Below, piece by piece: positions 1-21,260 of a DNA stretch of 64,000 nucleotides (positions within the stretch are counted from its first letter, which is position 1; each line of letters starts with the position of its first letter). Below the pieces are notes generated by a model. The model did not search any database. It was not told the DNA's origin and saw only the letters and a list, made by a program, of their open reading frames with translations. Both the position numbers and the translations under genes were made by a program. Where the stretch lies: positions 64,168 through 128,167 of the forward strand of contig JAJQCQ010000085.1 of the NCBI GenBank assembly GCA_021202635.1, written 5' to 3'. Origin of the DNA: Lachnospiraceae bacterium (GTDB lineage Bacteria; Bacillota; Clostridia; Lachnospirales; Lachnospiraceae).

Positions 1-405
1 CACTTTAAAGTCATTTTCAAATTTGATTCCGGCATCCGAAATATCCGCTTTCGTCTTTTCAAATATCTGTAATTCTTCCGCCGAACTCAGATCCGCAACT
101 TTCATCCGACTGCGGTACGCTGACGCAATGTCTGGTACAAGTACCTCTACGTCCGCACTGATTTTGCTCACGCAGGCTAACCTCCATCCCTGCGCAAATT
201 CCTCATCGGAGATATGCATGGTCTTCTTGGTATCCAGTTCTCCTCCGATCAATTTTACTCTGCATTTTCCGCAAGCTGCATTTCCATTGCATGGCGCATC
301 AATGGCAACATTCATCTTCTTTGCCACATCCAGAAGGCTTTCTCCCGCTAAAGCAAAGCCTTCGACATCCTGCCCATGTTCAAACTTAAAAGTCACTTTA
401 AACAT
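1..405 (-). CDS. acsV: Corrinoid activation/regeneration protein AcsV (RACo), N-terminal part, runs off window
   Basis: Reductive activator of the corrinoid iron-sulfur protein: it passes electrons to restore Co(I) when the corrinoid has been oxidised. Only about the first 135 residues are present. They start MFKVTFKFEHG and form a plant-type 2Fe-2S ferredoxin domain with CNGNAACGKC near residue 40 and a further Cys in the LAC motif near residue 75, as expected of RACo. The ATP-binding ASKHA part would lie beyond the window edge. The start is supported by a GGGAGAA ribosome binding site 8 nt upstream. It follows acsE in the same direction, but a strong terminator lies in the 341-nt gap, so it may be expressed separately. 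Identification rests on the ferredoxin domain plus the acs context. Confidence 0.85.
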   Translation of the reverse strand, partial: MFKVTFKFEHGQDVEGFALAGESLLDVAKKMNVAIDAPCNGNAACGKCRVKLIGGELDTKKTMHISDEEFAQGWRLACVSKISADVEVLVPDIASAYRSRMKVADLSSAEELQIFEKTKADISDAGIKFENDFKV

Positions 406-746
406 AATCATTTCTCCCATTATGTGTTTACACTTCAGACCGAAGTGGAACGGAGACGCCCATCAGCCACAGACATATGACGCATTAGCGGCATATTGCC
501 TGCGTAGCAGGCGGTCTGCGGCTTGCTGATCTGAATCTGAACAAAAACTGCCCTGAAAAAACATACCCAGGGGTACAAATACTTCCTGGGTATGATTCCG
601 TTTCATTATGATTCCATCCGCATGCAGCGACAGGCGGCATTGATTCTGCAGTGTTTTACCCGCCACAAAATCCCTGTACTGCATTTGCGGAGGAAAACTG
701 TGTGCGTGCAGCCCATTTCGATGCTGTTCTAAACGGCTGTTCAGAA
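406..746. other. Non-coding spacer between acsE and acsV
   Basis: 341 nt without a credible gene. It holds a Rho-independent terminator on the minus strand at 556-594, a GCCTGC/GCAGGC hairpin near 498-512, and a copy of the dispersed repeat (TGTTCTAAACGGCTGTTCAG) beside the acsE stop codon. A 73-codon frame at 463-684 on the minus strand has no ribosome binding site and is not called. I see no clear promoter for acsV. Confidence 0.6.
556..594 (-). terminator. Rho-independent terminator after acsE
   Basis: On the minus strand a perfect 10-bp stem (CATACCCAGG / CCTGGGTATG) with a 13-nt loop is followed directly by six T. It sits 150 nt after the acsE stop and 150 nt before acsV. It would end or strongly reduce transcripts of the acsB-acsD-acsC-acsE unit. 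Confidence 0.8.
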
Positions 747-1532
747 TCAGATCTCCAGATAGGAATCCGCATACAGAGTATTGCTCTTAAATACATCACA
801 GGATTTAATCGTTTCCATCAGACGAAGGTCATTCGGGTTCACGATCGCGGAGGTAAGACCCTGCATCATAGCCATTGCTACGAGTGCGGAATCCATGATC
901 GGACGAATGTGCTTCGGCATACCGTTAGAGTTATTGGAAAGGCCACCGGTAGAATTCAGACCCATATCAGAGAGCATCTTGATAAACTCAAGGATCTCCA
1001 TCTGCTTGTCCTGCATTCCCTTTACGACCAGGAAGAGCGGATCAAACCACATATCGGTTGGCTCCATACCAAGTTCCATGCCTCTCTCAAGAAGCATCTG
1101 GCAATAACCCATACGCTCATCATTGTCTTTTGCAATGCCTTCGCCGTTGCAAAGAGCAATCACGATCGCGTCGTTTGCTGCTGCAAGATCGATATTTTCG
1201 ATTCTTCCGGAAGCATCCGCAGAGTTTACAATCGGTTTTCCTTTAGAACGGTTGTAAACAGAGATACCTGCCTCGATTGCCTTCTTGTTGGAGGTATCCA
1301 GCGCCAGCGGAACATTGTCAAAGTTGCTCTGAAGGAGCTGTACCGCCCATTTCATCAGATCCTCACCATCTGCCTCAGCAGGTCCGATGTTTACATCAAG
1401 ATAAACAGCGCCGGCATCGAGCTGCTGCTTTGCTCTTTTCAGAATCGGCTCCGGGTCTCTCTCAGTAAACGCTTTGTTGACTGCAGGAGCAGTGGTGGAA
1501 AGTCTCTCACCAATCGTTACAAATTTTGCCAT
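747..1532 (-). CDS. acsE: Methyltetrahydrofolate:corrinoid/iron-sulfur protein methyltransferase AcsE
   Basis: Transfers the methyl group of CH3-H4folate to Co(I) of the corrinoid iron-sulfur protein, linking the methyl branch to the carbonyl branch of the Wood-Ljungdahl pathway. It has 261 residues, close to the 262 of the Moorella enzyme, and is a single pterin-binding TIM barrel. Pterin-site motifs visible are VYLDVNIGPAE, PLALDTSN and IVNSADASG. The start has AAAGGAGAA about 8 nt upstream. It lies 45 nt after acsC in the same direction and is surely co-transcribed with it. Nothing looks unusual in the protein; its stop codon overlaps a copy of the dispersed repeat. Confidence 0.96.
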   Translation of the reverse strand: MAKFVTIGERLSTTAPAVNKAFTERDPEPILKRAKQQLDAGAVYLDVNIGPAEADGEDLMKWAVQLLQSNFDNVPLALDTSNKKAIEAGISVYNRSKGKPIVNSADASGRIENIDLAAANDAIVIALCNGEGIAKDNDERMGYCQMLLERGMELGMEPTDMWFDPLFLVVKGMQDKQMEILEFIKMLSDMGLNSTGGLSNNSNGMPKHIRPIMDSALVAMAMMQGLTSAIVNPNDLRLMETIKSCDVFKSNTLYADSYLEI

Positions 1533-1577
1533 GATGGTTCTCCTTTATCTTAATTTTGGTTAACAGTTCAGTTACTC

Positions 1578-2921
1578 TTACAGTTCTTTCATAAACTTCA
1601 CAAGCTGAACAGCCTCTCTTGGAGCAATGATGATCTCCCATCCCGGAAGCTTCGCCTCAAGCTCGCCCTTTAATACAGCTACCTTGCCCGGAATAATCAG
1701 CTTTCTGGACTTCACTTTTCCCTCGATGTCCTGCTCTGCAAAGAACTTCGCGATCGTTCCTGCTGAGAATTTTCCTGCTGCCCAGGAAGTCAGTACGGAA
1801 AGTCCGCCTGCATCGTTGATGATGAGGTTGCACGGTACACCGGAGCGCTCCAGCTCACCGGATACCAGGAAGTAGGTCAGCGCAAAGTCTACCGTAGTCA
1901 GACATACCGAATTCTCATCTGCGCCGTTAAGCGGATAGATGCCCGGCTCAACCTTCATTGGTTTCTGCGGATCGGTGAAGAGGTTCTGTCTGAGACCATA
2001 TACCGGGTTTGCTTCCGCATAGGTCATCTGGTCAAGAACAATAATCGAACCATACTTCATCGTGAACAGAGATAAGAGAGCTGCCTGCAGATGTTTATCT
2101 CCCTGGCTCAAGCGATCGAGCCGCACAATCGACGGATAACCGCAGGTACGGTTGCTGTCTTTGATTGCCGCCTTACGGAATTCAACCGCAATCTTATATG
2201 CTTCTTTAACGGAATTCACGCCGCAGTCAAAGACCAGATTCTTATTTCCAAGCTTCTCAAGAGCTGCCAGCGTATCATAAAGCTCGTCAATATCCGCGCC
2301 CTGAACACCAAGAGTGACACCAGCTTCAGTCGCGACTTTATTCATTGCTTCATAGTTGGATGCATTTGCACCGTTCAGAACCGGCTTTTTATCCTTTACC
2401 AGGGCAAGAGCCTCAGCCGCAACCTCCGGATCTTCACAGCCAAGAATGAGCACACGGTCAACAGTCGCTGCTTTCTTAACCAGATCCAGATACTTGTCTT
2501 TGCCAGCCGCTTCCGCATAGTTTACATAAATCATTTCTGTAAACATACGCTCACCGATACGCTCATAGTCTACGGACTGAATTTCAGCCAGCTTCGCATC
2601 AATCGCCGCATCATCCATGCAGCTGCATACAGTAACTGCATAACGTGTTCTGCTTACGAAAGTTTTCTCATGACGGAACAGAACGGTTTCTCCGCCGAGA
2701 GAATACTCATTGTCACCGGTTCCGACCTTGATGGTCTTCATTGGCGGCGCAGTCGCCTCGTTCAGAGAAGCTTTTGCGTCCTCAGAAAAATAGGGACATT
2801 TATCAATGGAAACCGCACCCTGTGCCACTTTCATTGAGAAAGCCATACAGGTCGGGCTGCCGCACTCTTTACAGTTTTTCTTAGGTGATAATTTAAAAAT
2901 ATCCAAGCCTTTCAATGCCAT
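1578..2921 (-). CDS. acsC: Corrinoid iron-sulfur protein large (gamma) subunit AcsC
   Basis: Carries the cobamide and a 4Fe-4S cluster and shuttles the methyl group from AcsE to the A-cluster of AcsB. It has 447 residues, normal for the family. The N-terminal cluster domain shows Cys17, Cys20, Cys25 and Cys42 (KKNCKECGSPTC then DKCP), followed by a TIM barrel and the C-terminal B12-binding region (NLIINDAGGLSVLTSWAAG). The start is preceded by AAGGAGG. It is 30 nt downstream of acsD, with which it forms the heterodimer. Confidence 0.97.
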   Translation of the reverse strand: MALKGLDIFKLSPKKNCKECGSPTCMAFSMKVAQGAVSIDKCPYFSEDAKASLNEATAPPMKTIKVGTGDNEYSLGGETVLFRHEKTFVSRTRYAVTVCSCMDDAAIDAKLAEIQSVDYERIGERMFTEMIYVNYAEAAGKDKYLDLVKKAATVDRVLILGCEDPEVAAEALALVKDKKPVLNGANASNYEAMNKVATEAGVTLGVQGADIDELYDTLAALEKLGNKNLVFDCGVNSVKEAYKIAVEFRKAAIKDSNRTCGYPSIVRLDRLSQGDKHLQAALLSLFTMKYGSIIVLDQMTYAEANPVYGLRQNLFTDPQKPMKVEPGIYPLNGADENSVCLTTVDFALTYFLVSGELERSGVPCNLIINDAGGLSVLTSWAAGKFSAGTIAKFFAEQDIEGKVKSRKLIIPGKVAVLKGELEAKLPGWEIIIAPREAVQLVKFMKEL

Positions 2922-2951
2922 TTTATTTTCCTCCTTACGCTCTTCTGACGA

Positions 2952-3893
2952 TTAAATCAACTCTGAAATCATGGTCTTGATTGCTCTGACAGATTCCGGA
3001 TGTTTCAGAATCACAGCGTCTGAGCCGGCAGCGAGAACTGCTGCAGCAGTCTCTACTTCCATGTCAATCCCGCGCTCTTCCAGATTGCCCCATGCAGGCA
3101 TATCTTCTTCCGTAGCAGTGGACTCTTTTACCGTCCATGTCTCAGAAGCAACAGGAGTAATGATAGGCATCTGCAGCGTTGTGTCACCCTGTGACAGTGC
3201 AGCCGCTTTTACACGGTCCAGTGTAGATATCACGTAGTCGAAACCATATCCGACTGCAGCGGTACCAGCGTTCATTACAATTGTCTTACTGTCAACGCCA
3301 AGCTGTGTGAGCAGTACGTTCAGCTGTTTTGCAAGGTTGATATCTACAGCGGATTCAGCGCCCACAACCTGCTTGTAAGCAAGGCCGGCAGAAGCACCGA
3401 TAGTCTTGTAGTTTTCTTCCTTTGCCGCCAGAATCATGGCATTTTTGCCTTCCAGCGCAGCTGCAGCCTTATCCAGAAGCTCAGCGTCTTTTTCTACGTT
3501 CTTGCAGCCGCAAACAACAAGCGGAACATCGACAGCGTCAGCGACATCCCTGACAATCTGAATCAGTTCCTCCGTAGATTTGTTCTTTCCGTTCGGATCT
3601 CCGCCTTCCAAACGAATGCTGAGAAAATCAACTCCGTCAAATGTCACAGCTTTTTTTGCCATGTCAACAACCGTCGTGCAGCCCTCATAGAGCTTCTGTA
3701 CACACTCCGGCTCAGCTTCCATGCCGCCGTCCGTAATCTCAATACCAACCTTCGGTGCATTCTCAATCGCATCATCAAAGGTATAGAATGGGAAGACGTT
3801 CTCGCCGCCAAGCTTGATTGCCTTATCGCCGGTGCCGACTTCAACGGTATTAATTTTCGCATTGAATTTTCCTGATTTTGCAGTAAACGGCAT
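2952..3893 (-). CDS. acsD: Corrinoid iron-sulfur protein small (delta) subunit AcsD
   Basis: TIM-barrel partner of AcsC in the methyl-carrying corrinoid iron-sulfur protein. It has 313 residues. Motifs such as SIRLEGGDPNGKN and VVCGCKNVEKD and the C-terminal DAVILKHPESV fit the AcsD/CdhD family. It carries no cluster ligands of its own, as expected. The ribosome binding site AAGGAGG lies 9 nt before the ATG. It is separated from acsB upstream by a 394-nt structured spacer, the longest gap inside the cluster. Confidence 0.96.
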   Translation of the reverse strand: MPFTAKSGKFNAKINTVEVGTGDKAIKLGGENVFPFYTFDDAIENAPKVGIEITDGGMEAEPECVQKLYEGCTTVVDMAKKAVTFDGVDFLSIRLEGGDPNGKNKSTEELIQIVRDVADAVDVPLVVCGCKNVEKDAELLDKAAAALEGKNAMILAAKEENYKTIGASAGLAYKQVVGAESAVDINLAKQLNVLLTQLGVDSKTIVMNAGTAAVGYGFDYVISTLDRVKAAALSQGDTTLQMPIITPVASETWTVKESTATEEDMPAWGNLEERGIDMEVETAAAVLAAGSDAVILKHPESVRAIKTMISELI

Positions 3894-4287
3894 TTCTTTT
3901 TATCCTCCTTGTGGGTGTTACTAAAATTTGGGAAAAGGGGAGTCTACCTTAGGTTTCAATCAAAAGACATCTCGTCGCTTATGTAAAAGATTAGTAAGCT
4001 GGATGTGTCTCACTACTTGGCCTACATCGTAGACTCAGAAAAATGCTTCGCATTTTTCTTCGTTAAAAAAGCCAAAATCAACTCACAGGAAATTCTCGCG
4101 AGCGAGATTTCCTTTACTTGGCCTACACCATAGACTCAGAAAAATGCTCCGCATTTTTCTTCGTTAAAAAACTCAAAATCGTCATGCAAGAAATCTCGCA
4201 AGCGAGATTTCTTCGCAAGCCGATTTTACGGGAGATTCGTAATACGAATCTCCCTAAGAATGCAGCGAAGCTGCATTCTTGAGTTTT
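3894..4287 (-). other. Structured spacer between acsB and acsD
   Basis: 394 nt with no gene. It contains a 101-bp tandem duplication (4015-4115 and 4116-4216), each copy with two hairpins, plus two further perfect hairpins at 4230-4254 and 4256-4280. A 12-bp inverted repeat (4165-4176 with 4279-4290, the latter including the acsB stop codon) encloses the last three hairpins. Several hairpins have GAAG/TTCG-like loops. No long U-run follows a stem outside the closing helix, so I read it as a partial terminator, processing or mRNA-stabilising region rather than a full stop. Confidence 0.6.
4015..4216. repeat. 101-bp tandem direct repeat, two copies
   Basis: Copy 1 is 4015-4115 and copy 2 begins at 4116. 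The first 56 bases of the two copies (4015-4070 and 4116-4171) differ at only three positions. The remaining 45 are clearly related but more diverged. Each copy holds a stem AGAAAAATGC/GCATTTTTCT and a stem around CTCGC/GCGAG. The two copies are too few and too structured for a CRISPR. Confidence 0.8.
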
Positions 4288-6414
4288 TTACATCATTGGT
4301 TCCATCTCAAGTGCCGGGTGACCTTTTTCGGTCAGGAACGCGAGCAGTGCTTCCGGATCTTCGGTAACGACGGTCTCATCCGCAATCATATCGACGAAGT
4401 TATCGATTCCGTACAGCTCTTTTGCTGACTCGTTCAAGCGCTCTGCTACCTGGTCTTTGAGGTCTTTCGGCATCCACACGATACGGGCGATGCCGCCTTC
4501 TGCCTTCATGAACTTCTTAGAAGAAATGAAGTGCTTGCCATGTCCCATGAAGCCTGGGGTCTGCACACCGCCGCCGGTCATGGAAGCCAACTCGGAGAAG
4601 GTCATGCCGATCGGAGTCATGCCCGCGTACTCACGGTTCGCGATGCAGACGCCGTTGGAGAGCGGCTCGATGCCACAGATACATTCGAAGCAGCCGCAGC
4701 TTGTCATCGGCTTTTCGATGATGGAATACAGAGATACATCTTCCAGTGCGCCCTGTGAGAATTTGCGGACTGCCTCATTGACATCCTCATATTCGCCAAT
4801 GCGCTCATCGATGACTTTCTCTTTGGTAATAACCTGGCAGGGACCCTGCGGATCCAGCTCGTTGGTCGCTTTCGCGTCCAGCCATGAAACAGCGCCGCAC
4901 AGTCCAAGACGCTCCGGGGTAACTACGCAGACATGGCTTGGAGAGAATGCCTGGCACATAATGCAGCTATAGTAAACGTCAACGCCCTCATCTGTCAGGG
5001 TCGTTAGACGTTCATCACGTTTGTCAAACATCGGAATCGCCAGCTCATGACGAAGCTTTGTACACATTTCCGGATCAGTGATGACCTTCACCTGGCATTT
5101 GTCTACAACAGCTGCGAACTCACTCTTTACCTTCGCGTAAAGAACTTCGCCGATGTGTTTTGCACGGAAACCGGCATTGAAGGTATCTTTGCTGACACGG
5201 ATACGGATCATGTCACGCTGACCGGTGTGCATCAGACCTTCGATGCAGTTCAGATAAGAGTGGAACTTACGCTCGAATACCGGTTCAAAGTCTGCCTGCA
5301 TGCTCTTGCCGGCAACTTCTACTATGTAACCGATGGAATGCTTGCTGCCCACCTCGAACTCGTCGAGATCCGGTCCGATGACTTCGATCTTGTGGTCTTC
5401 TACTTCGGAGAGCTCTTTGTTGTGAACCAGCTCGAAGCAGTCGACTCTGGAGCCGTCGAATTCTACCTGCATATCGCCGCGGCGGATGATCTCGCCCTCG
5501 AATGCGGACGCAAACGCAACCGGGATATCGATATCTGTAATCTTAAGCTTAATATCACGCGCTTCCAGAGAGGTCGCGTTGAACTTGGACACATCCGTCT
5601 GTACAATCAGGCTCTTCGGTACACGGAAGGTCTCTTCATTTGTGATAACCGGGAAACCGAGGGCAATCGCCCCTGCGCCGGCTGCAACAATCACTTCATC
5701 CAGCGGAGCGAATGCGTTTACGAATGCCGGTACACGCTCCATCGTGTATTTCATCAGGCCTGCCGCATCACCCGGGGTGATATTACCAAAGATCAGCGCC
5801 GCACGGATAGCGACAGAAACTACATGAATGACTGCGGTGACGTCTTTGCCCAGCGGAATCACACGTACATTTGCGCCGGTTTTATAACCGAGCTCTTCAC
5901 ACTGATCAATGATGCCGCCAACCAGTGTAACCAGGATACCCTGTGCCTGATAGCTCTTTACCAGAGCAACACCTTCCTCTGCAGTCGGAGCTGCGCCAAG
6001 AATAACAGCTACGCCCGGGATATCGCCTGTAACAAGCGGAACACCCAGCTCACGGATCACTGCATCTGCAAGATGACCATAGCAAGGCTCAGAATACGGA
6101 GCTGCACCGTCAATATACTTCAGTACTTCGATAAATTCTGCGCAGAGTGCTGTCGCAACACCTGACATGAAAGCATCGTTCATTCTCGGATTTCTGGTCA
6201 TCAGAGTTTTTACGACGCCGAGAGCTGTTTTCAGCTCACCGAGATTACCGACCTTTGTGCCAGTCACAGCATAATAGCACGGAAGGCTGTACGCGGTGTC
6301 CGGGAAAGCTACCGGCTTGTCTTCGCCGTACTGTGCGATTGCATTATCAATCGCCTGTTCTGTAAGACCATATACTGCGTCATTTCCTTTAAAAATAACA
6401 TCAAATAAAGTCAC
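4288..6414 (-). CDS. acsB: Acetyl-CoA synthase (CODH/ACS alpha subunit) AcsB
   Basis: Condenses the methyl group, CO and CoA to acetyl-CoA at the Ni-Ni-4Fe4S A-cluster. It has 708 residues against 729 in Moorella, and the difference lies at the N-terminus. All A-cluster ligands are present: Cys484, Cys487, Cys496 and Cys506 for the cubane, and the Cys573-Gly574-Cys575 motif for the distal nickel. They sit a constant 22 positions before the Moorella numbering. The start is a GTG with AGGAGG 8 nt upstream; a longer frame to 6531 overlaps the upstream gene and has no supporting site. It is preceded at 76 nt by the CODH-like truncated gene. Confidence 0.97.
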   Translation of the reverse strand: MTLFDVIFKGNDAVYGLTEQAIDNAIAQYGEDKPVAFPDTAYSLPCYYAVTGTKVGNLGELKTALGVVKTLMTRNPRMNDAFMSGVATALCAEFIEVLKYIDGAAPYSEPCYGHLADAVIRELGVPLVTGDIPGVAVILGAAPTAEEGVALVKSYQAQGILVTLVGGIIDQCEELGYKTGANVRVIPLGKDVTAVIHVVSVAIRAALIFGNITPGDAAGLMKYTMERVPAFVNAFAPLDEVIVAAGAGAIALGFPVITNEETFRVPKSLIVQTDVSKFNATSLEARDIKLKITDIDIPVAFASAFEGEIIRRGDMQVEFDGSRVDCFELVHNKELSEVEDHKIEVIGPDLDEFEVGSKHSIGYIVEVAGKSMQADFEPVFERKFHSYLNCIEGLMHTGQRDMIRIRVSKDTFNAGFRAKHIGEVLYAKVKSEFAAVVDKCQVKVITDPEMCTKLRHELAIPMFDKRDERLTTLTDEGVDVYYSCIMCQAFSPSHVCVVTPERLGLCGAVSWLDAKATNELDPQGPCQVITKEKVIDERIGEYEDVNEAVRKFSQGALEDVSLYSIIEKPMTSCGCFECICGIEPLSNGVCIANREYAGMTPIGMTFSELASMTGGGVQTPGFMGHGKHFISSKKFMKAEGGIARIVWMPKDLKDQVAERLNESAKELYGIDNFVDMIADETVVTEDPEALLAFLTEKGHPALEMEPMM

Positions 6415-6490
6415 TTTACTACCTCCTGAATTATACAGCAGAGAGCGATTTGCTGTCTGCGTAATTACTTTTGTTTCAACGTGCGATGGA

Positions 6491-7183
6491 TCAGATTTCA
6501 ATCGCAGTGCGCTTTTTCTCGATATCCGCAATCAGAGCATCTGCGAGCTCATCCAGATCAGCAGAAACCGTCTGCGTTGCATCCGCGCCGTTTTTCAGTC
6601 CGCTTGCAGCGAACACATCTTCCAGGGAACCCTCATAGGGCAGGATGCCGATAAAGGTATCAACACCCAGGCCTGCAAATGTATTGCCAAGCTCCACGGC
6701 CTGAGCTGTTACACCGGCAGGATCACAGCCAACTACCGGCAATTGCGGTACTGTCAGGCCGGAATCATTGCAAAGTGCAGTCGCGATTGTCACGACATTG
6801 CCTACATTCTCCAGACCGCCAAGCGGCAGTACCGGAGGAATCTCTGCAAGTTCACAGACACGCTTCAGGCCTGCGCCGCACAGTTCCTTCGCATCCGGGT
6901 TCAGAAGTCCGGCGTCCGCCGCCACCTGTACCGGATAACCGATCGCCAGTATTACGATATCATTGGCAATCAGCTTTTTGAAAAGAGCTACATACTCGTC
7001 CGTATCACGGACTTCAGACCCATCCGTTCCAAGAAGCACGGCAGCGCCGCGCAGTACGCCGGAAGTCACACATTCTAACAATGGCTTCGTCGTACCGGTC
7101 GTATCGACCTTTGAATTGCAGACTCCATCCAACGCCTGAATGATGTCCGCTACTTCCAGTTTCGGTAATGCAGATTCACTCAT
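6491..7183 (-). CDS. Stand-alone CODH C-terminal-domain paralogue without C-cluster cysteines
   Basis: 230 residues that align end to end with residues about 409-630 of the CooS encoded at 8180-10072. Shared blocks include ETGTTKPL/DTTGTTKPL, LCGAGLKRVCEL, IPPVL and QLPVVGC, and the same EEKRTA/EKKRTA terminus. All three C-cluster cysteine positions of this domain are changed: CooS Cys451 to Thr53, Cys481 to Tyr83 and Cys522 to Leu124. The N-terminal CODH half with the B and D clusters is absent. It therefore cannot be a CO dehydrogenase. It is an intact frame with its own promoter and ribosome binding site (AGAGGCG), directly before acsB, which argues against a dead remnant. A structural or assembly partner of CODH/ACS is a guess. 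Confidence 0.85.
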   Translation of the reverse strand: MSESALPKLEVADIIQALDGVCNSKVDTTGTTKPLLECVTSGVLRGAAVLLGTDGSEVRDTDEYVALFKKLIANDIVILAIGYPVQVAADAGLLNPDAKELCGAGLKRVCELAEIPPVLPLGGLENVGNVVTIATALCNDSGLTVPQLPVVGCDPAGVTAQAVELGNTFAGLGVDTFIGILPYEGSLEDVFAASGLKNGADATQTVSADLDELADALIADIEKKRTAIEI

Positions 7184-7219
7184 TTCATTCGCCTCTTTTC
7201 CAGTTTTTTGTATACTATT

Positions 7220-7248
7220 GTTATACCAAGAACTTCTCGATTTTGCAA
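7220..7248 (-). promoter_or_regulatory. Promoter for the CODH-like gene and acsB
   Basis: Minus-strand -35 TTGCAA (7243-7248) and -10 TATAAC (7220-7225) with a 17-nt spacer. They lie about 37 nt upstream of the start at 7183, inside the short gap after cooC. This would allow acsB to be transcribed separately from the CODH maturation genes. Confidence 0.6.
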
Positions 7249-7285
7249 CTGAAAAACTGTTTTGGCGATGATATTTTATCCTGTT

Positions 7286-8044
7286 TTATTCCAGCTTTTC
7301 CTTAATAGAGCGAATTTCCTGCACAGTACTCTGGCTGTAATCATAAGGGGAGGAACCATTGCGGTCTGCGTCAATGATTTCCGTATTGTAATGAATCACA
7401 CCAAGAAGATCCTCAGCCGGTATCTTCGAGCGGACAAACTCCTCATCCTTCTCATCGCGGACCTTATTCGCGACCACATAAACCTGTTTTACACCGAGGT
7501 CATCCGCCAGACGTTTTACATTGCGATAAGTCTGTACACTTCTCGCGCCGGGTTCGATCACAACAATAAATGCGTCCATACCGCTTGTGGTCCCGCGGCC
7601 AAGGTGCTCCAGTCCGGCTTCCATGTCCAGGATCACCACATCGTTTGAGCGAAGCATGAGATGATTAATAATTCTTTTGAGCATTACATGCTCCGGACAG
7701 ACACAGCCACTGCCGCCAGTCTCTACCGTTCCCAGAACCAGAAGCTTCACTCCATTGCATTTTTTTGCGTATTTATCCGGAATATCGTCTACCTTTGGAT
7801 TGATTTTAAAAATCTTATTGAACTCATCGGCACCGGTGCGTTCCTCAACCAATTTTCGCATTTTTGTGATGGGGACGATTTCTGCCAGATCGGCCTCATC
7901 AAATCCGAGTGCCAGGCCGAGATTTGCGTCCGGGTCCGCGTCCGCAGCCAGCACAGAGCGCCCTTCATCCGCATACAACCGCGCCAGCGTCGCAGCAAAA
8001 GTTGTCTTACCAACTCCGCCCTTTCCAGTAATTGCAATCTTCAT
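7286..8044 (-). CDS. cooC: CODH nickel-insertion ATPase CooC (copy downstream of cooS)
   Basis: MinD/ParA-type P-loop ATPase that inserts nickel into the C-cluster of CODH, or possibly the A-cluster of ACS. It has 252 residues. The deviant Walker A GKGGVGKT is at residues 7-14, and the dimer-interface nickel-binding CxC pair is Cys114/Cys116 (GCVCPEH). A switch motif DMEAGLEHLGRG follows. The start is supported by AGAGG about 9 nt upstream. It lies between cooS and the CODH-like gene. The window holds a second, diverged CooC at 10215-10988; which one corresponds to AcsF cannot be decided from sequence alone. Confidence 0.92.
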   Translation of the reverse strand: MKIAITGKGGVGKTTFAATLARLYADEGRSVLAADADPDANLGLALGFDEADLAEIVPITKMRKLVEERTGADEFNKIFKINPKVDDIPDKYAKKCNGVKLLVLGTVETGGSGCVCPEHVMLKRIINHLMLRSNDVVILDMEAGLEHLGRGTTSGMDAFIVVIEPGARSVQTYRNVKRLADDLGVKQVYVVANKVRDEKDEEFVRSKIPAEDLLGVIHYNTEIIDADRNGSSPYDYSQSTVQEIRSIKEKLE

Positions 8045-8099
8045 GTATACTGCCTCTTTCCTGCTACCGATAAAATCATGAGTTCAACAGCTTTTTGCT

Positions 8100-8149
8100 G
8101 CAGACCCGCCCGCTTAGCGAACGATATGCTGCTTCACAGAAGGGTCTGC
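8100..8149. repeat. Inverted repeat between cooS and cooC
   Basis: Arms GCAGACCC (8100-8107) and GGGTCTGC (8142-8149) with a 34-nt loop lie in the 135-nt gap between cooS and cooC. No U-run follows on the minus strand. It may be a degenerate member of the dispersed palindrome family, or an mRNA-processing site. Confidence 0.4.
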
Positions 8150-8179
8150 GCAAAAAAGGAAACATTCTGAATTTGAAAA

Positions 8180-10072
8180 TCAGATCCCCAGTGCGGTTCT
8201 CTTCTCTTCGATCCGTTCGATCATCTTGTCAACCATCTTATCGATGTCTGTCTCGACGGTATAGCAAGCCTCTACCCAGTCACGGATGCCGCCCTGCAGC
8301 AGACCTTCCACCTCTGAGGATCCGCTTGCATACGGGTCTACGCCAAGGAAGGTATCAAGACCGGTCACTACCACATAGTTGCCGATGGAAACAGCCTTTT
8401 CAGACATCCACTCCGGTGCGCAGCCAACTACCGGCAGCTGAGAGATGTTCCATCCGGAATCCTTTGCCAGCTCAGAAACAAGAATCATCATACGGCTGGT
8501 ATCTACACAGGAGCCCATATGAAGCACCGGCGGAATGTCAGCCAGCTCACAGACTCTCTTCAGACCGGCGCCGCAGAGATCCTTCGCGCGCTTATCCATC
8601 AGACCGGCTTTCGCAGCCGCCTGAGCGGAACAGCCTGACGCTACGATAATAATATCATTTTCAATCAGCTTCTTCATCAGACCAATGTGCGCTGTATCCG
8701 GGCGAACCTTCGGGTTGTTGCAGCCTACCATGGCTACCGCACCACGGATAACGCCGGATTTGATGCAGTCAACAAGCGGCTTTGTTGTGCCTGTCTCGTC
8801 TACCTGAGAGTTGGTCACGGTATCCAGTGTCTTCACAATGGCCTCAACAGAATAGCCAACGGTCGCTTTTTGCTTCAGCTGCGGGATATGTACCAGCTCC
8901 GGTTTCCGGTTCTTAAAGTTCTCAATCGCCATCTTTACGATCGCTTTCGCATTCTCACCGGCATTTTCCGGGGAGAAACGGATATAATCACTCTCCGGCA
9001 TCTGTGCGATCGGAGAGGTCGTCACAAATTTGGTGTGGAAGCACTTTGCCAGCGGTCCGATTGCCGGGAAAATACACTGTACGTCAACAACAATCGCCTC
9101 GCAGGCACCGGTCAGAATGACATTTTCCTGCTGCAGGAAGTTACCAGCCATCGGGATACCACGGCGCATTGCTACTTCATTGGAGGTACAGCAGACACCG
9201 GAAACCGTGATGCCCTTCGCACCCATCTCCTTCGCGTAAGCGATCATCTCCGGGTCATCTGCATACTCGCAGATCATCTCAGAAAGCGACGGATCATGTC
9301 CATGAACTACGATATTAACATTTTCTTCCACCATAACACCAAGGTTCGCCTCGGTGTCGATTGGCTTCGGCGTACCAAACAGGACATCGGAGAACTCCGT
9401 ACCTGCCATGGAACCGCCCCAGCCATCCGCCAGGCCGGCACGCAGAGACTGGCGAATCAGGGCCTCCGGCTTGGAAGAGCATCCCATATGGGTCATATGC
9501 ATGGAACAGGAAACCTCACGGTCAATCGCGCGCGGCTCAATTTCTTCTCTGGCCCAAAGCTCCTGTGTATGCTTCGGAGCTCTTTTAATGAAGTTCTGGT
9601 GTCCAAATACTTTTCCATACTCACCCAAAGCGAGAACAGCCATCTCATGAGCCAGATCATAGATGTCCTTCCCCTCTGTCTCAACGCCCCATTCCTTTGC
9701 GATACGGATCAGCTTCTCCGGGTCCTTTACCTTATAGTTGCCATCCGGTGAGGTGCAGTAAAGGGTATGGCAGATCTCACGGCCATGATCCGAGTGCGTC
9801 GCTGCTCCGCCGGCGGTAAATCTCAGATAGTTACGACCTACAATTCCGTGCGCGTCGCAACCGCAGATTCCACGCGGCGCTTTCGGAGTAATCCGGCATG
9901 GTCCCATCGTACAGATACGGCAGCAGACGCCCTGCTCGCCAAACTTACAATGCGGCGTCTGATTTTTTACGCGGTACTGATAGGCATCTGCGCCCACCTT
10001 TGCTCCTGTTTCGAGGAGCCGGTTTGTAGCCGCTTCAAACTCCTCAACTGTTGTCAGCTTAAAGTCTCCCAT
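8180..10072 (-). CDS. cooS: Ni-dependent carbon monoxide dehydrogenase catalytic subunit (AcsA/CooS)
   Basis: Reversibly reduces CO2 to CO, which is channelled to AcsB for acetyl-CoA synthesis (often named acsA in acetogens). It has 630 residues. The N-terminal B/D-cluster cysteines are in residues 42-75 (HCKFGEQGVCCRICTMGPC and GICGC). The C-cluster set is complete: the HGH motif near 257-259, Cys295 (GVCCTSNE), Cys333 (VQCIFP), Cys451 (GCNNP), Cys481 (SGCSAQ) and Cys522 (MGSCVD). The start has GGAGG 7 nt upstream. It is flanked by one cooC on each side, and a candidate promoter stands just before it. Confidence 0.97.
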   Translation of the reverse strand: MGDFKLTTVEEFEAATNRLLETGAKVGADAYQYRVKNQTPHCKFGEQGVCCRICTMGPCRITPKAPRGICGCDAHGIVGRNYLRFTAGGAATHSDHGREICHTLYCTSPDGNYKVKDPEKLIRIAKEWGVETEGKDIYDLAHEMAVLALGEYGKVFGHQNFIKRAPKHTQELWAREEIEPRAIDREVSCSMHMTHMGCSSKPEALIRQSLRAGLADGWGGSMAGTEFSDVLFGTPKPIDTEANLGVMVEENVNIVVHGHDPSLSEMICEYADDPEMIAYAKEMGAKGITVSGVCCTSNEVAMRRGIPMAGNFLQQENVILTGACEAIVVDVQCIFPAIGPLAKCFHTKFVTTSPIAQMPESDYIRFSPENAGENAKAIVKMAIENFKNRKPELVHIPQLKQKATVGYSVEAIVKTLDTVTNSQVDETGTTKPLVDCIKSGVIRGAVAMVGCNNPKVRPDTAHIGLMKKLIENDIIIVASGCSAQAAAKAGLMDKRAKDLCGAGLKRVCELADIPPVLHMGSCVDTSRMMILVSELAKDSGWNISQLPVVGCAPEWMSEKAVSIGNYVVVTGLDTFLGVDPYASGSSEVEGLLQGGIRDWVEACYTVETDIDKMVDKMIERIEEKRTALGI

Positions 10073-10091
10073 AAATAACCTCCAAGTTTAT

Positions 10092-10120
10092 TTAATAAAG
10101 TGTATATCCGGCTGCGGCAA
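10092..10120 (-). promoter_or_regulatory. Candidate promoter for cooS
   Basis: Minus-strand -35 TTGCCG (10115-10120) and -10 TATTAA (10092-10097) with a 17-nt spacer. They lie directly before the GGAGG of cooS, giving a leader of only about 15 nt. The hexamers are moderate matches. Confidence 0.4.
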
Positions 10121-10214
10121 AAAGTATGCTCCAGAAGGATTCCGCAATTTCTGTCCGCTGCCGTTCATAATTGTCTGCCATCTGCGCCGGGTGCGCAAAA
10201 ACGATGGAAGACAG

Positions 10215-10988
10215 TTACTTCAGATGAATTGTTTTCAGGATCTCATTGAGCGCAAGGCGCACTGGTGAGTCCTCCGGAAGTGAAGAAGTGGGTCTGCCTT
10301 CGCAGTCATATTCGTAAACCTGCTCATCCTGCGGTACAACGCCAAGCAGACGGAGGCCGCTCTTTTCAATCTCTTCCTTTGTACCGGCATTTAACTGTCC
10401 GTTCGGCGCACGATTCACGATCAGGCCAATTGTTTTCGGATTCAGATGGCACTCTTCAACCAGCTTGGCAATACGCTCGGTTGCCTGAACTCCTCTCCTG
10501 GAGCAGTCACTGATGAGCAGCATCGTGTCCACCTTTGGTAAAATACCACGGCTGATGTGCTCCATCCCCGCTTCATTGTCTACCACCACATACTTATAAT
10601 TCGGAATCAGCTTCGCCAGCTGCGCCTGCAGCAGGCCGTTTACATAACAATAGCAACCCTGCCCCTGGGATCTTCCCATCACCAGAAGATCAAAATCGTC
10701 ATCCTCTGCTAGACAGCGCTGAAGCATCATCTCTGTATAATCCGCTTTTGTCATACCGGAAGGAATGTTCCGGTCCAGCTTGTCCGCATCGTGGAGTACG
10801 GTCTCGCGTACATCTCCGAGCGTCATCTCTACATCGACACCAAGGACTTCGTTCAGGTTTGAGTTCGCATCGGCGTCCACTGCAAGGATCGGGCGTTTTC
10901 CCTCCATGCACATCGTCTGTATCAGCAAACCGCCGAGCGTTGTTTTGCCAACGCCGCCTTTTCCTGCTATCGCAATCACATGAGCCAT
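10215..10988 (-). CDS. cooC: CODH/ACS nickel-insertion ATPase, CooC/AcsF type (copy upstream of cooS)
   Basis: P-loop maturation ATPase of 257 residues. The deviant Walker A GKGGVGKT is at 9-16 and the nickel-binding pair Cys112/Cys114 (GCYCYV) has the same numbering as in Carboxydothermus CooC1. A conserved VDNEAGMEHISRG switch region is present. It is clearly diverged from the other CooC at 7286-8044, so the two probably serve different clients (C-cluster versus A-cluster); this is inference. The ribosome binding site GGAGG is 12 nt upstream. It follows cooT by about 65 nt in the same direction. Confidence 0.9.
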   Translation of the reverse strand: MAHVIAIAGKGGVGKTTLGGLLIQTMCMEGKRPILAVDADANSNLNEVLGVDVEMTLGDVRETVLHDADKLDRNIPSGMTKADYTEMMLQRCLAEDDDFDLLVMGRSQGQGCYCYVNGLLQAQLAKLIPNYKYVVVDNEAGMEHISRGILPKVDTMLLISDCSRRGVQATERIAKLVEECHLNPKTIGLIVNRAPNGQLNAGTKEEIEKSGLRLLGVVPQDEQVYEYDCEGRPTSSLPEDSPVRLALNEILKTIHLK

Positions 10989-11054
10989 GAAAACTGCATG
11001 CCTCCTTTTCCCTTTCGCTTATAAAAAATTTATAGTACGGATAAAACCCGGACA

Positions 11055-11249
11055 TTACGCAACATCTTCACAGTTGATCTCCACCTTGCCGCCGGTCAGA
11101 TCCGCCATAGCCAGCGTGCCCTCAATCGTCTTCCGCTCACCCATTACATCTGTAAGAGTGATCTGCTTCCCGTCCACTTCAATCTTGCTGACATACTCCA
11201 GAATGATGCTGTCGGGTTCATTTTTCGCATACACAGTCGCCAGACACAT
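11055..11249 (-). CDS. cooT: CooT-family nickel-binding protein
   Basis: 64-residue protein starting MCLATVYAK, matching the CooT family, in which Cys2 binds one Ni(II) per dimer. A small beta-barrel with alternating charged residues follows (EVDGKQITLTDVMGE). The family usually accompanies CODH and helps supply nickel. A GTG nine bases upstream is embedded in the ribosome binding site GGAGGTG; starting at the ATG places Cys at position 2 as in the family, so I prefer 11249. It lies between the His-rich protein and cooC, all in one direction. Confidence 0.85.
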   Translation of the reverse strand: MCLATVYAKNEPDSIILEYVSKIEVDGKQITLTDVMGERKTIEGTLAMADLTGGKVEINCEDVA

Positions 11250-11305
11250 TTCGCACACCTCCTTTTAAACCTTCACAACGTTTTGTAGTCTCCGGACGGA
11301 CGCTG

Positions 11306-11737
11306 TCAGCCTTCCTGTACCATCGACAACGCAAGCTTTAAATACAGGTTTCCTTTTTGGAATTCATCTACTGCTTTTTTGATCTGCTCTGCTGCCGCTT
11401 CTTTTCCTTCTTCGCGGAACTTTCCGGCTACCTGATCAAGCTCTGCTGCATGATGCTCATTGTGTTTGAGCATATAGTCGAGCAGTGCAACCATTTTATC
11501 GCCTTCCGGAGCTTCCTGCGCATGTGCTTCACATGCGCCGCAATGTGCATGCTCGCCCTCATGGACATGACAATGTTCTTCCCCGTGATCATGAGAATGA
11601 TTGTGTTCCTCTTCATGACCATGTTCATGCGTGTGTGGATGGGAGTGCTCATACGTATGGGTATGCGTATGGGTATGCTCTCCGTTTTCGTGTGAATGTG
11701 GAACCGCATTACCATTTTCATCCTGAACCAGATGCAT
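11306..11737 (-). CDS. His-rich metal-binding protein, CooJ-like nickel storage candidate
   Basis: 143 residues. Residues 14-72 carry 22 histidines, many as HTH, HSH or HEH alternations, plus Cys56, Cys66 and Cys69. The rest (about 78-143) is an acidic helical tail with KHNEHHAAELDQVAGKF. This design resembles R. rubrum CooJ and His-rich nickel chaperones (HypB and SlyD tails), although the His block is N-terminal here and I do not claim homology. Being the first gene before cooT, cooC and cooS, its likely job is to buffer or deliver nickel. The start is fixed by AAAGGGG 8 nt upstream; a frame extending to 11878 reads into the leader and is rejected. Confidence 0.75.
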   Translation of the reverse strand: MHLVQDENGNAVPHSHENGEHTHTHTHTYEHSHPHTHEHGHEEEHNHSHDHGEEHCHVHEGEHAHCGACEAHAQEAPEGDKMVALLDYMLKHNEHHAAELDQVAGKFREEGKEAAAEQIKKAVDEFQKGNLYLKLALSMVQEG

Positions 11738-11772
11738 AGATGTTCCCCTTTCTCTTTGCAATTGTAATTTTG

Positions 11773-11810
11773 TTATCACTGGTTGTTCTCTTCCGCAGCG
11801 ATGGTGATAA
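11773..11810. promoter_or_regulatory. Inverted repeat in the leader of the CODH cluster
   Basis: Arms TTATCAC (11773-11779) and GTGATAA (11804-11810) in the roughly 145-nt leader between the promoter and the His-rich gene. It could be an operator or an RNA hairpin. The arms are short, so confidence is low. Confidence 0.3.
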
Positions 11811-11887
11811 GGGTATGATTTTCTATGATTGTTAATTTTTTCACGCACAAAAACACAAAAAAAGCATCCCCCACCCACGGATACCTT

Positions 11888-11916
11888 ATCCTATCACAAA
11901 TGCCCGGAAATTACAA
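11888..11916 (-). promoter_or_regulatory. Candidate main promoter of the CODH/ACS cluster
   Basis: Minus-strand -35 TTGTAA (11911-11916) and -10 TAGGAT (11888-11893) with a 17-nt spacer. The -35 lies inside the loop of the terminator of the preceding gpsA operon, so the two units are packed end to end. Confidence 0.5.
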
Positions 11917-11934
11917 CGATTTCCCGGGCATTTT
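11898..11934 (-). terminator. Stem-loop ending the gpsA operon
   Basis: Long inverted repeat AAATGCCCGG...CCGGGCATTT, extended by AAAT/ATTT pairs. It begins about 32 nt after the gpsA stop codon. The T-run that follows on the minus strand is short, so termination may be leaky. It overlaps the candidate promoter of the CODH cluster. Confidence 0.65.
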
Positions 11935-11966
11935 CTGTTTACGTATTAAAAAAATACAATCAATTT

Positions 11967-12974
11967 TTACCAGGGTGTCAGCGAATTCTCTACCCCCATG
12001 TCACGGAGCATCAGAGCAGATACGGTCTCCTTCGGGTTTTTTCCTTCAAAAAGAATCTTGTTTACCTGCTCTATAATCGGGAGTTCTACATCATATTTTT
12101 TTGCAAGCGCAACAGCAGATTTTGTCGAGTAAACGCCCTCCACAACCATGTTGACTTCCTTCATCGCCTCTTCCATCGAATATCCCTGCCCCAGAAGAAT
12201 TCCGGCACGTCGGTTTCGGCTGTGCATACTCGCACAGGTGACAATCAGGTCGCCAATCCCGGTGAGTCCGCAGAATGTTTCAAACTGACCGCCCATTTTT
12301 ATACCGAGCCGGGCGATCTCTACGATCCCCCGTGTAATAAGAGCCGCCTTTGCATTGTCGCCATAGCCCATGCCATCCGCGATACCTGCCGCAAGGGCAA
12401 TGACATTTTTCAGTGAACCGCCAAGTTCAATTCCAATCATATCGGAGCTGATATAGACGCGAAACACCGGGCTCATGAAAAGCTTCTGAAGCGATCGCGC
12501 CGTCTGTTCATCCTTTGCCCCGATCACAATCGCGGTCGGCATTCCCCGTCCTACTTCCTCCGCATGGCTGGGGCCGGAAATGACAGCTGTCTGTGCCTGT
12601 GGAATCTCATCCTCAATCACATCTGTCATCGTCATGAGGCTTCCTTCTTCGATCCCCTTCGCTGCATTTACAATCACCGTACCTTCTGCCACCAGAGGTT
12701 TCATCTTTCTGGCAGTCTCCCGCACAACTGCGGAAGGACTGACCATGACAAGAAGCTCCTGCCCGCGCACTGCGACAGCCAGATCCGAAGTCACCTGAAT
12801 CTGTTCCGGAATCGTGACTCCCGGAAGCTTCGAGGGCAGTTCATGGGACTTGCGGATTTGTTCCGCATCGGATTCCAGAAAGGACCAGAGCGTCACATCA
12901 TTTCCGTTTTCACGTAATAGTTTCGACAGGGCAAGTCCCCAGCCGCCTGCACCAATTACACCAATTTTTGCCAT
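11967..12974 (-). CDS. gpsA: NAD(P)+-dependent glycerol-3-phosphate dehydrogenase
   Basis: Makes sn-glycerol 3-phosphate from dihydroxyacetone phosphate for phospholipid synthesis. It has 335 residues from the ATG at 12974, which has GGAGG about 8 nt upstream; a 12-residue longer frame lacks a site. The N-terminal dinucleotide fold shows GVIGAGGWGLAL. Further on are NAAKGIE, ISGPSHAEE, the catalytic-lysine region LGGSLKNVIALAAG, and GLTGIGDLIVTC. It follows plsY, the next enzyme of the same pathway, and is the last gene of the prs-DUF512-der-plsY-gpsA run. Confidence 0.96.
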   Translation of the reverse strand: MAKIGVIGAGGWGLALSKLLRENGNDVTLWSFLESDAEQIRKSHELPSKLPGVTIPEQIQVTSDLAVAVRGQELLVMVSPSAVVRETARKMKPLVAEGTVIVNAAKGIEEGSLMTMTDVIEDEIPQAQTAVISGPSHAEEVGRGMPTAIVIGAKDEQTARSLQKLFMSPVFRVYISSDMIGIELGGSLKNVIALAAGIADGMGYGDNAKAALITRGIVEIARLGIKMGGQFETFCGLTGIGDLIVTCASMHSRNRRAGILLGQGYSMEEAMKEVNMVVEGVYSTKSAVALAKKYDVELPIIEQVNKILFEGKNPKETVSALMLRDMGVENSLTPW

Positions 12975-13058
12975 ACCATATCCTCCATTCTTTCTGTAAA
13001 TCTGAGGCATGGATGATGCTCCGGCCGCGAAGCAGGATCCATTCAGCTCCCGTATAGT

Positions 13059-20022: not shown

Positions 20023-20595
20023 CTATAGCAGTCCAAACGATGAAAACGGCCAGATTCGCAAAACCGCTTTCCCTATGATCTGGTCTCTTGTGATATTTCC
20101 GACACTCGGTTCCCGGCTGTCCGTACTGTTATTGCGGTTGTCTCCAAGAACAAAATATTCCTGGTCGCCAAGCGTAATCTCCGCCGAGGCCAGTCCCGGA
20201 TTGCGGATCATTTCATTCCCATAAGAATCTTCCAGAATCTCTCCGTTGATATATATGACGCCGTCCACAATCTGAACCGTTTCTCCCGGAAGACCGATAA
20301 TTCTTTTGATGTAATAGGTGTCTTCCTGATACTGAAATGGAAAGACAACGATATCGAACCGTTTCGGATCCGTAAAACGGTAAGAAATCATATCGACGAT
20401 CAGCTGATCCCCGTCACTGAGTGCCGGATACATGGATTCCCCCCACACTTCGGTGCGTTCTACGACATAATTGACAACCAGGTAAGCCGCACCGCAAATC
20501 AGAATAAAGTAAAAAATCCAGCTCAACGCCTCCCGGACAATACTTTTTTTCTTCTTTCCATTCTTTTTTCCCGCTTTTTCTTCACCCTTCTTCAA
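20023..20595 (-). CDS. lepB: Signal peptidase I (third copy)
   Basis: Type I signal peptidase, membrane anchored, which cleaves Sec and Tat signal peptides. It has about 190 residues from a TTG start with AGGGAG 6 nt upstream; another TTG at 20610 is possible. A Lys-rich cytoplasmic tail precedes one membrane helix (SWIFYFILICGAAYLVV). The catalytic Ser is in GESMYPAL and the catalytic Lys in YYIKRIIGLPGE. The GDNRNNSTDSR box is present. It is the closest of the three copies to its upstream neighbour at 20667-21260, suggesting a tandem duplication. Confidence 0.93.
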   Translation of the reverse strand: MKKGEEKAGKKNGKKKKSIVREALSWIFYFILICGAAYLVVNYVVERTEVWGESMYPALSDGDQLIVDMISYRFTDPKRFDIVVFPFQYQEDTYYIKRIIGLPGETVQIVDGVIYINGEILEDSYGNEMIRNPGLASAEITLGDQEYFVLGDNRNNSTDSREPSVGNITRDQIIGKAVLRIWPFSSFGLL

Positions 20596-20666
20596 GCGCT
20601 TCTCCCTCAAACTTCCCTGTATCGCCGTCTGGCATGAGCAGGCCGGATGCCTGCACCACAGGAACC

Positions 20667-21260
20667 TTACTGATGCGTCAGGAACCCAAAGCTGCTAAGC
20701 GGCCAGATCCGCAGCCATGCCTTTCCGACGATCGAGTCCCGGCTGACATTTCCAACACGTTCTGTTCGGCTGTCCGTACTGTTGTTGCGGTTATCACCAA
20801 GGACAAAATATTCATCTTCTCCCAGGGTAATCTCTTCGCTTGCCCGTCCGGGATTTTCAATCGTTTCTCTGCCGTAATCCTCCTCAAGCAGTTCGCCGTC
20901 AATGTAAATACTGCCATCCTCGTCAATGCGTACGGTTTCACCGGGAAGACCGATGATTCGCTTGATATAGAGTTCACTGGAGTCCTCATAAGGCTGAAAT
21001 ACGATAATATCAAAGCGCTGCGGGTCGCCAAAGCGGTAGGAAAGCTTTTCCACAATCAGATTGTCCCCATCCTGAAGGGTATCATTCATGGAACGACCGT
21101 CTACAACCGTTCTCTGACCAACGAAATGCAGAATCAGCCAGGTTGCCAGAATTACAAAACCGATATATAAGATCCAGCTTAAAATTTCTCTTTTCAGATC
21201 CACCTGGTTCACCTCGTCAGCAGTATTGTTCTGTTCTTTATTTCTGCTCATTGTCCCCAT
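20667..21260 (-). CDS. lepB: Signal peptidase I (second copy)
   Basis: 197 residues with one N-terminal membrane helix, catalytic Ser57 (DGRSMND), Lys100 (LYIKRIIGLPGE) and GDNRNNSTDSR. It is complete and looks active. It shares the GDPQRFDIIVF-type block and the C-terminal WPLSSFG with the third copy at 20023-20595 and is less like the copy at 22292-22837. The initiation site is weak: two ATGs 9 nt apart are possible. Confidence 0.93.
   Translation of the reverse strand: MGTMSRNKEQNNTADEVNQVDLKREILSWILYIGFVILATWLILHFVGQRTVVDGRSMNDTLQDGDNLIVEKLSYRFGDPQRFDIIVFQPYEDSSELYIKRIIGLPGETVRIDEDGSIYIDGELLEEDYGRETIENPGRASEEITLGEDEYFVLGDNRNNSTDSRTERVGNVSRDSIVGKAWLRIWPLSSFGFLTHQ

Follow-up and report, generated by a model that had tools for sequence, protein, structure and literature searches.

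A predicted CODH-derived pseudoenzyme domain encoded within the acs cluster of Lachnospiraceae

Introduction

CODH/ACS belongs to the most ancient machineries of carbon fixation, and CODH-ACS docking, maturation and CO retention are still under study. According to PMC11474084, Rossmann fold 2 of the C. autoethanogenum CODH carries the loop and the helix which dock to ACS. The acsA gene of the same organism is interrupted by an in-frame TGA, resulting in CAETHG_1621 (1203 bp) and CAETHG_1620 (684 bp), and partial read-through was shown (PMC4895105). Published CODH surveys discarded short hits, with thresholds of less than 550 aa in PMC6344411 and less than 400 aa in PMC8776680, and would therefore miss a protein of the kind described here. 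A survey of ruminant acetogens reports a similar acs gene organization across genera, and its accessible part makes no mention of such a gene (PMC12449052). Likewise, no description of such a short CODH-like protein was found in the accessible portions of the open-access literature, most subscription papers being outside that search.

Here we analyze a stand-alone gene from the acs cluster of a Lachnospiraceae bacterium, referred to as the short gene, the product of which (the short protein) resembles the C-terminal part of CODH.

Results

Position of the short gene within the acs cluster

The window, i.e., the whole stretch of 64,000 nucleotides that was analyzed, contains an acs cluster on its minus strand in the order second CooC-like ATPase, cooS/acsA, cooC, short gene, acsB, acsD, acsC and acsE-like gene (Table 1). 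The name cooC for the gene preceding the short gene is derived from its position and the motif GKGGVGKTT, and no cooC model matched. As stated in the initial annotation, the short gene lies directly before acsB: 76 nt separate its stop codon from the likely GTG start codon of acsB, which is preceded by an AGGAGG read by eye.

Table 1. Features of the acs cluster in the window.
Feature	Position	Strand	Remarks
acsE-like methyltransferase	747..1532	-	named by eye and position
acsC (complex subunit gamma)	1578..2921	-	NF003195
acsD (complex subunit delta)	2952..3893	-	NF040759
acsB, acetyl-CoA synthase	4288..6414	-	likely GTG start at 6414
230-aa stand-alone CODH Rossmann-fold-2 paralogue without C-cluster ligands (short protein)	6491..7183	-	intact ORF, ATG start
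cooC-to-short intergenic region	7184..7285	-	RBS and promoter-like TTGCAA-17-TATAAC
cooC-like nickel-insertion ATPase gene	7286..8044	-	P-loop MinD/CbiA families
cooS/acsA, full-length acs-type CODH	8180..10072	-	parent family of the short protein; all checked C-cluster sites present
second CooC/MinD-like ATPase	10215..10988	-	upstream of cooS

The promoter of its own which had been ascribed to the gene is weakly supported. The promoter-like sequence is situated 36 nt 5' of the short-gene ATG; the same site was present in only eight of the 23 acs-linked loci and was absent from the output of a standard promoter scan. A Shine-Dalgarno-like GAGGCGA ending 5-6 nt before the ATG was found in all 23 linked loci, and the two unlinked copies described below carry AGGAGGAAT at this position. 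The codon bias of the short gene (0.658, compared to 0.543-0.787 for 12 other genes of the window) says little, because the reference set consists mostly of acs genes.

Just upstream of the second CooC-like gene, an ORF at 11306-11737 (minus strand) encodes a His-rich protein of 143 aa with dense HTHTH-type repeats, for which no Pfam match was obtained and for which nickel storage or handling is possible. Three signal-peptidase-I-like ORFs, named by eye, are clustered at 20023-20610, 20667-21260 and 22292-22837 on the minus strand. Rfam gave no match in positions 1-13000 of the window, and PHROGs gave none either.

Relationship to the C-terminal region of CooS

In a single BLASTP comparison with the nearby CooS, 104 of 232 positions (45%) were identical with an E value of 5e-67, and the alignment covers the short protein over its whole length and CooS from residue 399 to 630, in accordance with the relationship proposed initially. 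The short protein passes the Pfam model Prismane (PF03063) with 83.1 bits at a cut-off of 27 (profile positions 345-484 of 513), and scores 93.1 bits against TIGR01702, the model of the Ni-CODH catalytic subunit, which lies far below its cut-off of 478 (profile positions 417-618 of 621). Since it begins at the equivalent of CooS residue 399, the N-terminal region with the B/D clusters and the remaining C-cluster ligands is absent. The closest relatives of solved structure in a PDB sequence search were the CODH chains 9fzy and 6ytt of the C. autoethanogenum CODH/ACS (E 3.4e-35), residues 405-630 and 406-631 of which align with residues 8-230 of the short protein. Judged from these alignments, the short protein is predicted to be Rossmann fold 2 of CODH alone. 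A search of the whole source genome returned two matches only, the short gene and cooS. A chance ORF is ruled out by homology and conservation.

Loss of the C-cluster ligands and of a lysine

For the comparison of ligand positions, 24 complete short proteins (22 acs-linked and two unlinked; the cut copy of genome G020 was left out) were aligned with 59 CooS, 32 from the genus and 27 from the family. In all 59 CooS the residues C451, C481, C522 and K559 are invariant, and C42, H93, H259, C294 and C333 are kept in all 58 sequences of exactly 630 residues, one CooS of 628 residues being left out. We take these ligand cysteines and the lysine to correspond to C446, C476, C526, K563 and others of C. 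hydrogenoformans, and CooS K559 presumably is the catalytic acid/base Lys563 of its CODH-II. The spacing of 37 residues between the last cysteine and the lysine agrees with that residue assignment.

All 24 short proteins carry Tyr at position 83 (C481 in CooS) and Leu at position 124 (C522), so that two of the three cysteine replacements originally noted are fixed throughout the family. Position 53 (C451) is variable, with Thr in 17, Gly in six and Cys in one copy (G010), and the Thr53 of the window is thus not fixed. A fourth loss, beyond those originally listed, concerns the lysine located 37 residues after C522, as K559 is replaced by Gln161 in 24 of 24 copies. Because the thiolate ligands are gone, a role of the short protein as a C-cluster scaffold is unlikely.

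Departures from CooS

Of 143 positions that are near-invariant in CooS (at least 57 of 59 sequences), 67 have a changed consensus in the short proteins. These changes are concentrated around the ligand sites, where 27 of 32 CooS-invariant positions changed compared to 40 of 111 elsewhere; the Fisher p of 1.5e-6 is only descriptive, because the windows were drawn after the changed sites had been seen. Moreover, no variation was seen among the 24 short proteins at 23 of these 67 positions, including S56, Y83, P120, L121, G123, L124, E125, N126, D154 and Q161. Both observations would fit an old C-cluster pocket rebuilt for another ligand, either a small molecule or a metal held by O/N donors, which would turn the short protein into a sensor or regulator, perhaps of CODH/ACS. 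Against this stands that the pocket is barely more constant within the short family than the rest of the protein (20 of 34 pocket-window positions invariant vs. 97 of 196; 117 of 230 overall), and a special constancy of the old pocket was discarded, the excess being only slight. Furthermore, the most constrained segment, residues 115-126 with 12 of 12 positions invariant, is equally constant in CooS, and no ligand, motif or family match indicates a ligand. We therefore consider a rebuilt ligand pocket unlikely.

The putative ACS-docking loop and helix were equated with residues 54-75 by the order of elements in the Rossmann fold, with borders set by eye. In this segment seven of 22 positions are invariant and 10 of 22 show the CooS consensus. 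Compared to 117 invariant positions of 230 overall, the conservation of the docking helix is not supportive of ACS binding, and a docking piece without special constraint speaks against the simplest docking mimic. The short family is also strongly acidic, with a mean pI of 4.2 and a charge of -17.6 compared to 5.2 and -5.4 for the parent domain; the surface of the short protein has therefore changed.

Integrity of the gene and selection

All 24 complete copies start with ATG, encode 230 aa and stop after residue 230, with neither indel nor internal stop. For 20 carriers with complete cooS, acsB and short gene, dN/dS was determined according to Nei-Gojobori from pairs with dS between 0.2 and 1.5, other pairs being dropped. 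The median for the short gene was 0.060 (range 0.027-0.110; 138 pairs), compared to 0.052 for the CooS C-terminal domain (178 pairs), 0.026 for CooS 1-398 (162 pairs), 0.027 for CooC (54 pairs) and 0.094 for AcsB (184 pairs). Between the two unlinked copies, identity amounts to 96% at the protein level and 83% at the DNA level, and the 116 differences are distributed as 6, 5 and 105 over the first, second and third codon positions. The low dN/dS and the predominance of third-position differences therefore indicate strong purifying selection in both the linked and the unlinked setting, contrary to relaxed selection.

A functionless fragment left to decay after a partial duplication would account for the patchy presence within the genus, in which 23 of 47 genomes hold a full or cut copy. 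Such a fragment would hardly retain a dN/dS of 0.06 and a reading frame free of internal stops, frameshifts and indels in 24 complete copies, nor a ribosome binding site conserved in the linked loci and a further existence at a second, unlinked place. We regard decay as extremely improbable; dN/dS, length conservation and codon-position counts rule out a relic or pseudogene.

Distribution and linkage to acs

Among 47 genomes of the genus, 22 contain the full stand-alone gene, one (G020) a copy cut to 63 residues by the contig end, 14 cooS only and 10 no match. A match for acsB was obtained in 40 of the 47, including all 23 carriers of the short gene. The order cooS-cooC-short-acsB is found in 22 of 22 carrier loci that reach acsB (the DNA examined contains only part of cooS in G005 and of acsB in G010), and in G020 cooS-cooC is followed by the short gene, within which the contig ends. 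Of the 14 genomes in which only cooS was matched, 11 have a contiguous cooS-cooC-acsB that lacks the short gene; in two others with split contigs, G007 and G024, acsB is preceded by the end of cooC and the end of cooS, respectively. Thus, 13 genomes of the genus keep cooS and acsB without the short gene (the 14th cooS-only genome, G002, is not counted), and the short gene is therefore dispensable. A 28% match in G003 was set aside, being by eye an ABC-transporter ATPase frame.

Beyond the genus, the copy of the window itself was the only full-length stand-alone copy among the matches listed for 397 genomes of the family, with at most seven candidates per genome scored, and likewise among the stronger matches, which were those listed, for 398 genomes of the phylum with the same limit on candidates. 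The shortest other frames among the matches listed were fragments of 76 and 79 aa and a 305-aa frame (G448), matching CooS residues 326-630, in the family, and a frame of 374 aa in the phylum. A scan of genome contigs with six short peptides yielded 18 loci, the titles of which all refer to MAGs of Lachnospiraceae, Clostridiales or Marvinbryantia, and several of these loci lie on contigs of genus genomes already counted. Fifteen of the loci (L032-L046) contain copies of 82-99% identity, each preceded by a CooS-type match at a distance of up to about 2.1 kb; in the genome of L046, cooS, short gene and acsB are close together. L049 combines a 46% cooS match with a 94% short-gene fragment at the contig end.

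The remaining two loci, L047:4807-5499 and L048:8001-8693, represent unlinked copies of 71% identity in two genomes (G858 and G859) beyond the genus set. With full copies in 22 of 47 genus genomes and in these two, the gene is not confined to one genome. Among 98 relatives of the L048 genome, a stand-alone copy was detected in the same two genomes only. The unlinked copies adjoin a TraX-like gene and have MFS-like or MATE-like transporter genes as neighbors, all named by eye, and no acs gene, including cooC, was found in the surrounding 6.9 and 12.6 kb. Both genomes possess cooS, one at full length (84%) and the other as a 281-residue piece at a contig end (83%), and linkage to acs is therefore not needed. 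In G858 the acs cluster, which lacks the short gene, reaches the start of acsB at a contig end; a search of G859, the cooS of which is cut by the contig end, did not yield acsB.

These neighborhoods raise the possibility of an unrelated role to which the CODH ancestry would be incidental, as the copies of G858 and G859 have TraX-like and transporter genes beside them and no acs gene nearby. Since all 23 genus carriers and both unlinked carriers have CODH, and the short gene lies inside the acs cluster in each of the 23 genus carriers, an unrelated role appears quite improbable.

The gene order also bears on a function in maturation, in which the short protein would serve CooC or apo-CooS as a CODH-like decoy or platform during insertion of nickel into the C-cluster. 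In each of the 23 linked loci the short gene follows cooC directly, the most CooS-like segment of the protein (residues 99-114) is consensus-identical at 14 of 16 positions, and the His-rich, possibly nickel-handling protein and the second CooC-like ATPase are encoded upstream of cooS. This function has to be reconciled with the loss of this domain's thiolate ligands, one of which persists in one copy, which makes holding of the C-cluster unlikely. In addition, no cooC accompanies the unlinked copies within the 6.9 and 12.6 kb examined, and the phylogeny of CooC does not track the presence of the gene, one carrier clade being rejected with a p-AU of 0.00015. On balance, a maturation helper seems doubtful to us.

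Viral contigs gave no match. The single plasmid match and the single phage match were rejected as stand-alone copies, since they lie in CooS-size frames of 631 and 664 aa, respectively. The phage record, L188 (MT836275.1, 1397-3391), is titled 'UNVERIFIED Bacteriophage sp.' and derives from human faeces; its 664-aa frame with the CooS-like match is probably bacterial DNA in a phage record. L187 (NZ_CP154629.1) is a 2.63-Mb 'plasmid' of Acetoanaerobium noterae with cooS, cooC-like and fhs-like genes, named by eye, and the record may therefore be a mislabelled chromosome.

Origin and phylogeny

In a tree with CooS of other clostridial groups, eight short proteins join 38 acs-type CooS of Lachnospiraceae with a support of 99/95, and these 38 CooS form a group without the short proteins in none of 200 bootstrap trees. 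The stem of the short proteins measures 2.84 changes per column compared to a median end branch of 0.074. Because of the long branches and a bootstrap that had not settled according to program warnings, the nesting and the exact sister of the short proteins are unsure. As judged from the sequences, the short gene most likely stems from the duplication of only the 3' third of an acs-type cooS of Lachnospiraceae, and the history may be read as a single such event, a burst of change and subsequent stasis.

In a housekeeping tree built from four proteins (with 23 carriers, 11 non-carriers and two others), three changes are needed to explain the distribution of carriers, and the test gave no firm rejection of one carrier clade (p-AU 0.065; 0.27 without G010). 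CooC rejects one carrier clade at the value given above and AcsB does not (p 0.32). Vertical loss and exchange between lineages are both possible causes of the patchy presence. The CooC of the genus (window 7286-8044, loci L089-L126) fall into two deep types which cut across the carriers of the short gene. As CooC splits the carriers while CooS groups 21 of 22, the acs cluster looks mosaic.

Three CooS residues, A342, E360 and W541, are common to 21 of 22 carriers and were found in 0, 1 and 2 of 36 other CooS, which include that of G858 with its unlinked copy and from which one CooS of 628 aa was left out. Co-evolution of CooS and the short gene was considered on these grounds and dismissed: shared descent is sufficient, as the CooS tree groups the same 21 carriers (98/97) and the housekeeping tree is compatible with such a clade (p-AU 0.27). 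Columns which split carriers from non-carriers fully or with one overlap numbered three in AcsB, two in CooC and six in CooS, counts that are confounded by relatedness.

Discussion

Taken as a whole, the sequence comparisons indicate that the short protein is a real, conserved and lineage-restricted CODH-derived pseudoenzyme domain, a variant within a known family. The loss of the ligands together with purifying selection argues for a pseudoenzyme domain rather than a CODH. Of the duplicated pseudo-subunit with a non-catalytic role that was suggested initially, the retained, translated-looking and non-catalytic duplicate of the CODH C-terminus stands; the assembly scaffold, as far as the C-cluster is concerned, is unlikely, the thiolate ligands having been lost.

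The explanation we prefer, tentatively and at somewhat less than even chances, is that a duplicate of the 3' third of cooS has become a pseudoenzyme domain under selection which acts as a non-catalytic partner of CODH/ACS in trans. A partial duplicate of an acs-type cooS, as suggested by the tree, would encode Rossmann fold 2 only; the C-cluster ligands and the lysine would have been lost in a burst of change, and the new form would then have been held by purifying selection. The identity with Rossmann fold 2 and the constant company of CODH genes make a trans-acting partner of CODH/ACS the best guess, and the protein probably helps or regulates the real enzyme with no chemistry of its own. 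It would most likely do so by presenting, without a C-cluster, either the CODH surface to which ACS docks or, to CooS or CooC, a surface resembling that of CODH. In this way the short protein could hold, cap or time the assembly of ACS or apo-CODH; ACS, CooS and CooC are speculative candidate partners, with ACS as the first guess. The idea of an ACS interface gains support from the literature on the C. autoethanogenum CODH/ACS, but the segment equated with the docking loop and helix shows no special conservation in the short proteins.

A more elaborate version, rather unlikely as a whole, is a lineage-specific regulatory pseudo-subunit: after duplication, the ACS-facing fold would have lost its NiFeS site and been remodelled about invariant side chains, and would control CODH-ACS in trans through docking, the CO tunnel or maturation, possibly via a new ligand in the old active site. 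If the preferred explanation applies, selection would be maintaining a natural, metal-free, ACS-facing CODH domain in gut bacteria that possess an acs cluster, and this domain could serve directly as a probe of the interface. The short protein would possibly be the first pseudoenzyme described for the CODH/ACS system.

Among known systems, the archaeal CODH epsilon subunit bears a likeness to the short protein in being a small accessory subunit with a single Rossmann fold as main element (PMC11474084); no epsilon-subunit chain was among the 40 PDB sequences matched by the short protein at E values up to 1. The mini-CooS of Thermosinus carboxydivorans is a reduced CODH-like protein as well and is described with a complete metal-cluster motif, which the short protein lacks (PMC8776680). 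The closest counterpart of solved structure is the CODH of C. autoethanogenum (6ytt, 9fzy, residues ~405-630), which is homologous over residues 8-230 and has the same Rossmann fold 2; compared to it, the short protein has no helical domain, no Rossmann fold 1 and no B/D cluster region, and within the shared domain the lysine and, except for one in a single copy, the C-cluster cysteines are missing. The split acsA of this organism is divided close to the same domain border, giving parts of about 400 and 230 residues, which supports a natural domain border. In contrast, acsA is one split gene with a truncated main product and partial read-through, and no ligand loss is mentioned in the part consulted, whereas the short gene is a second gene next to an intact cooS and its product has lost the ligands (PMC4895105).
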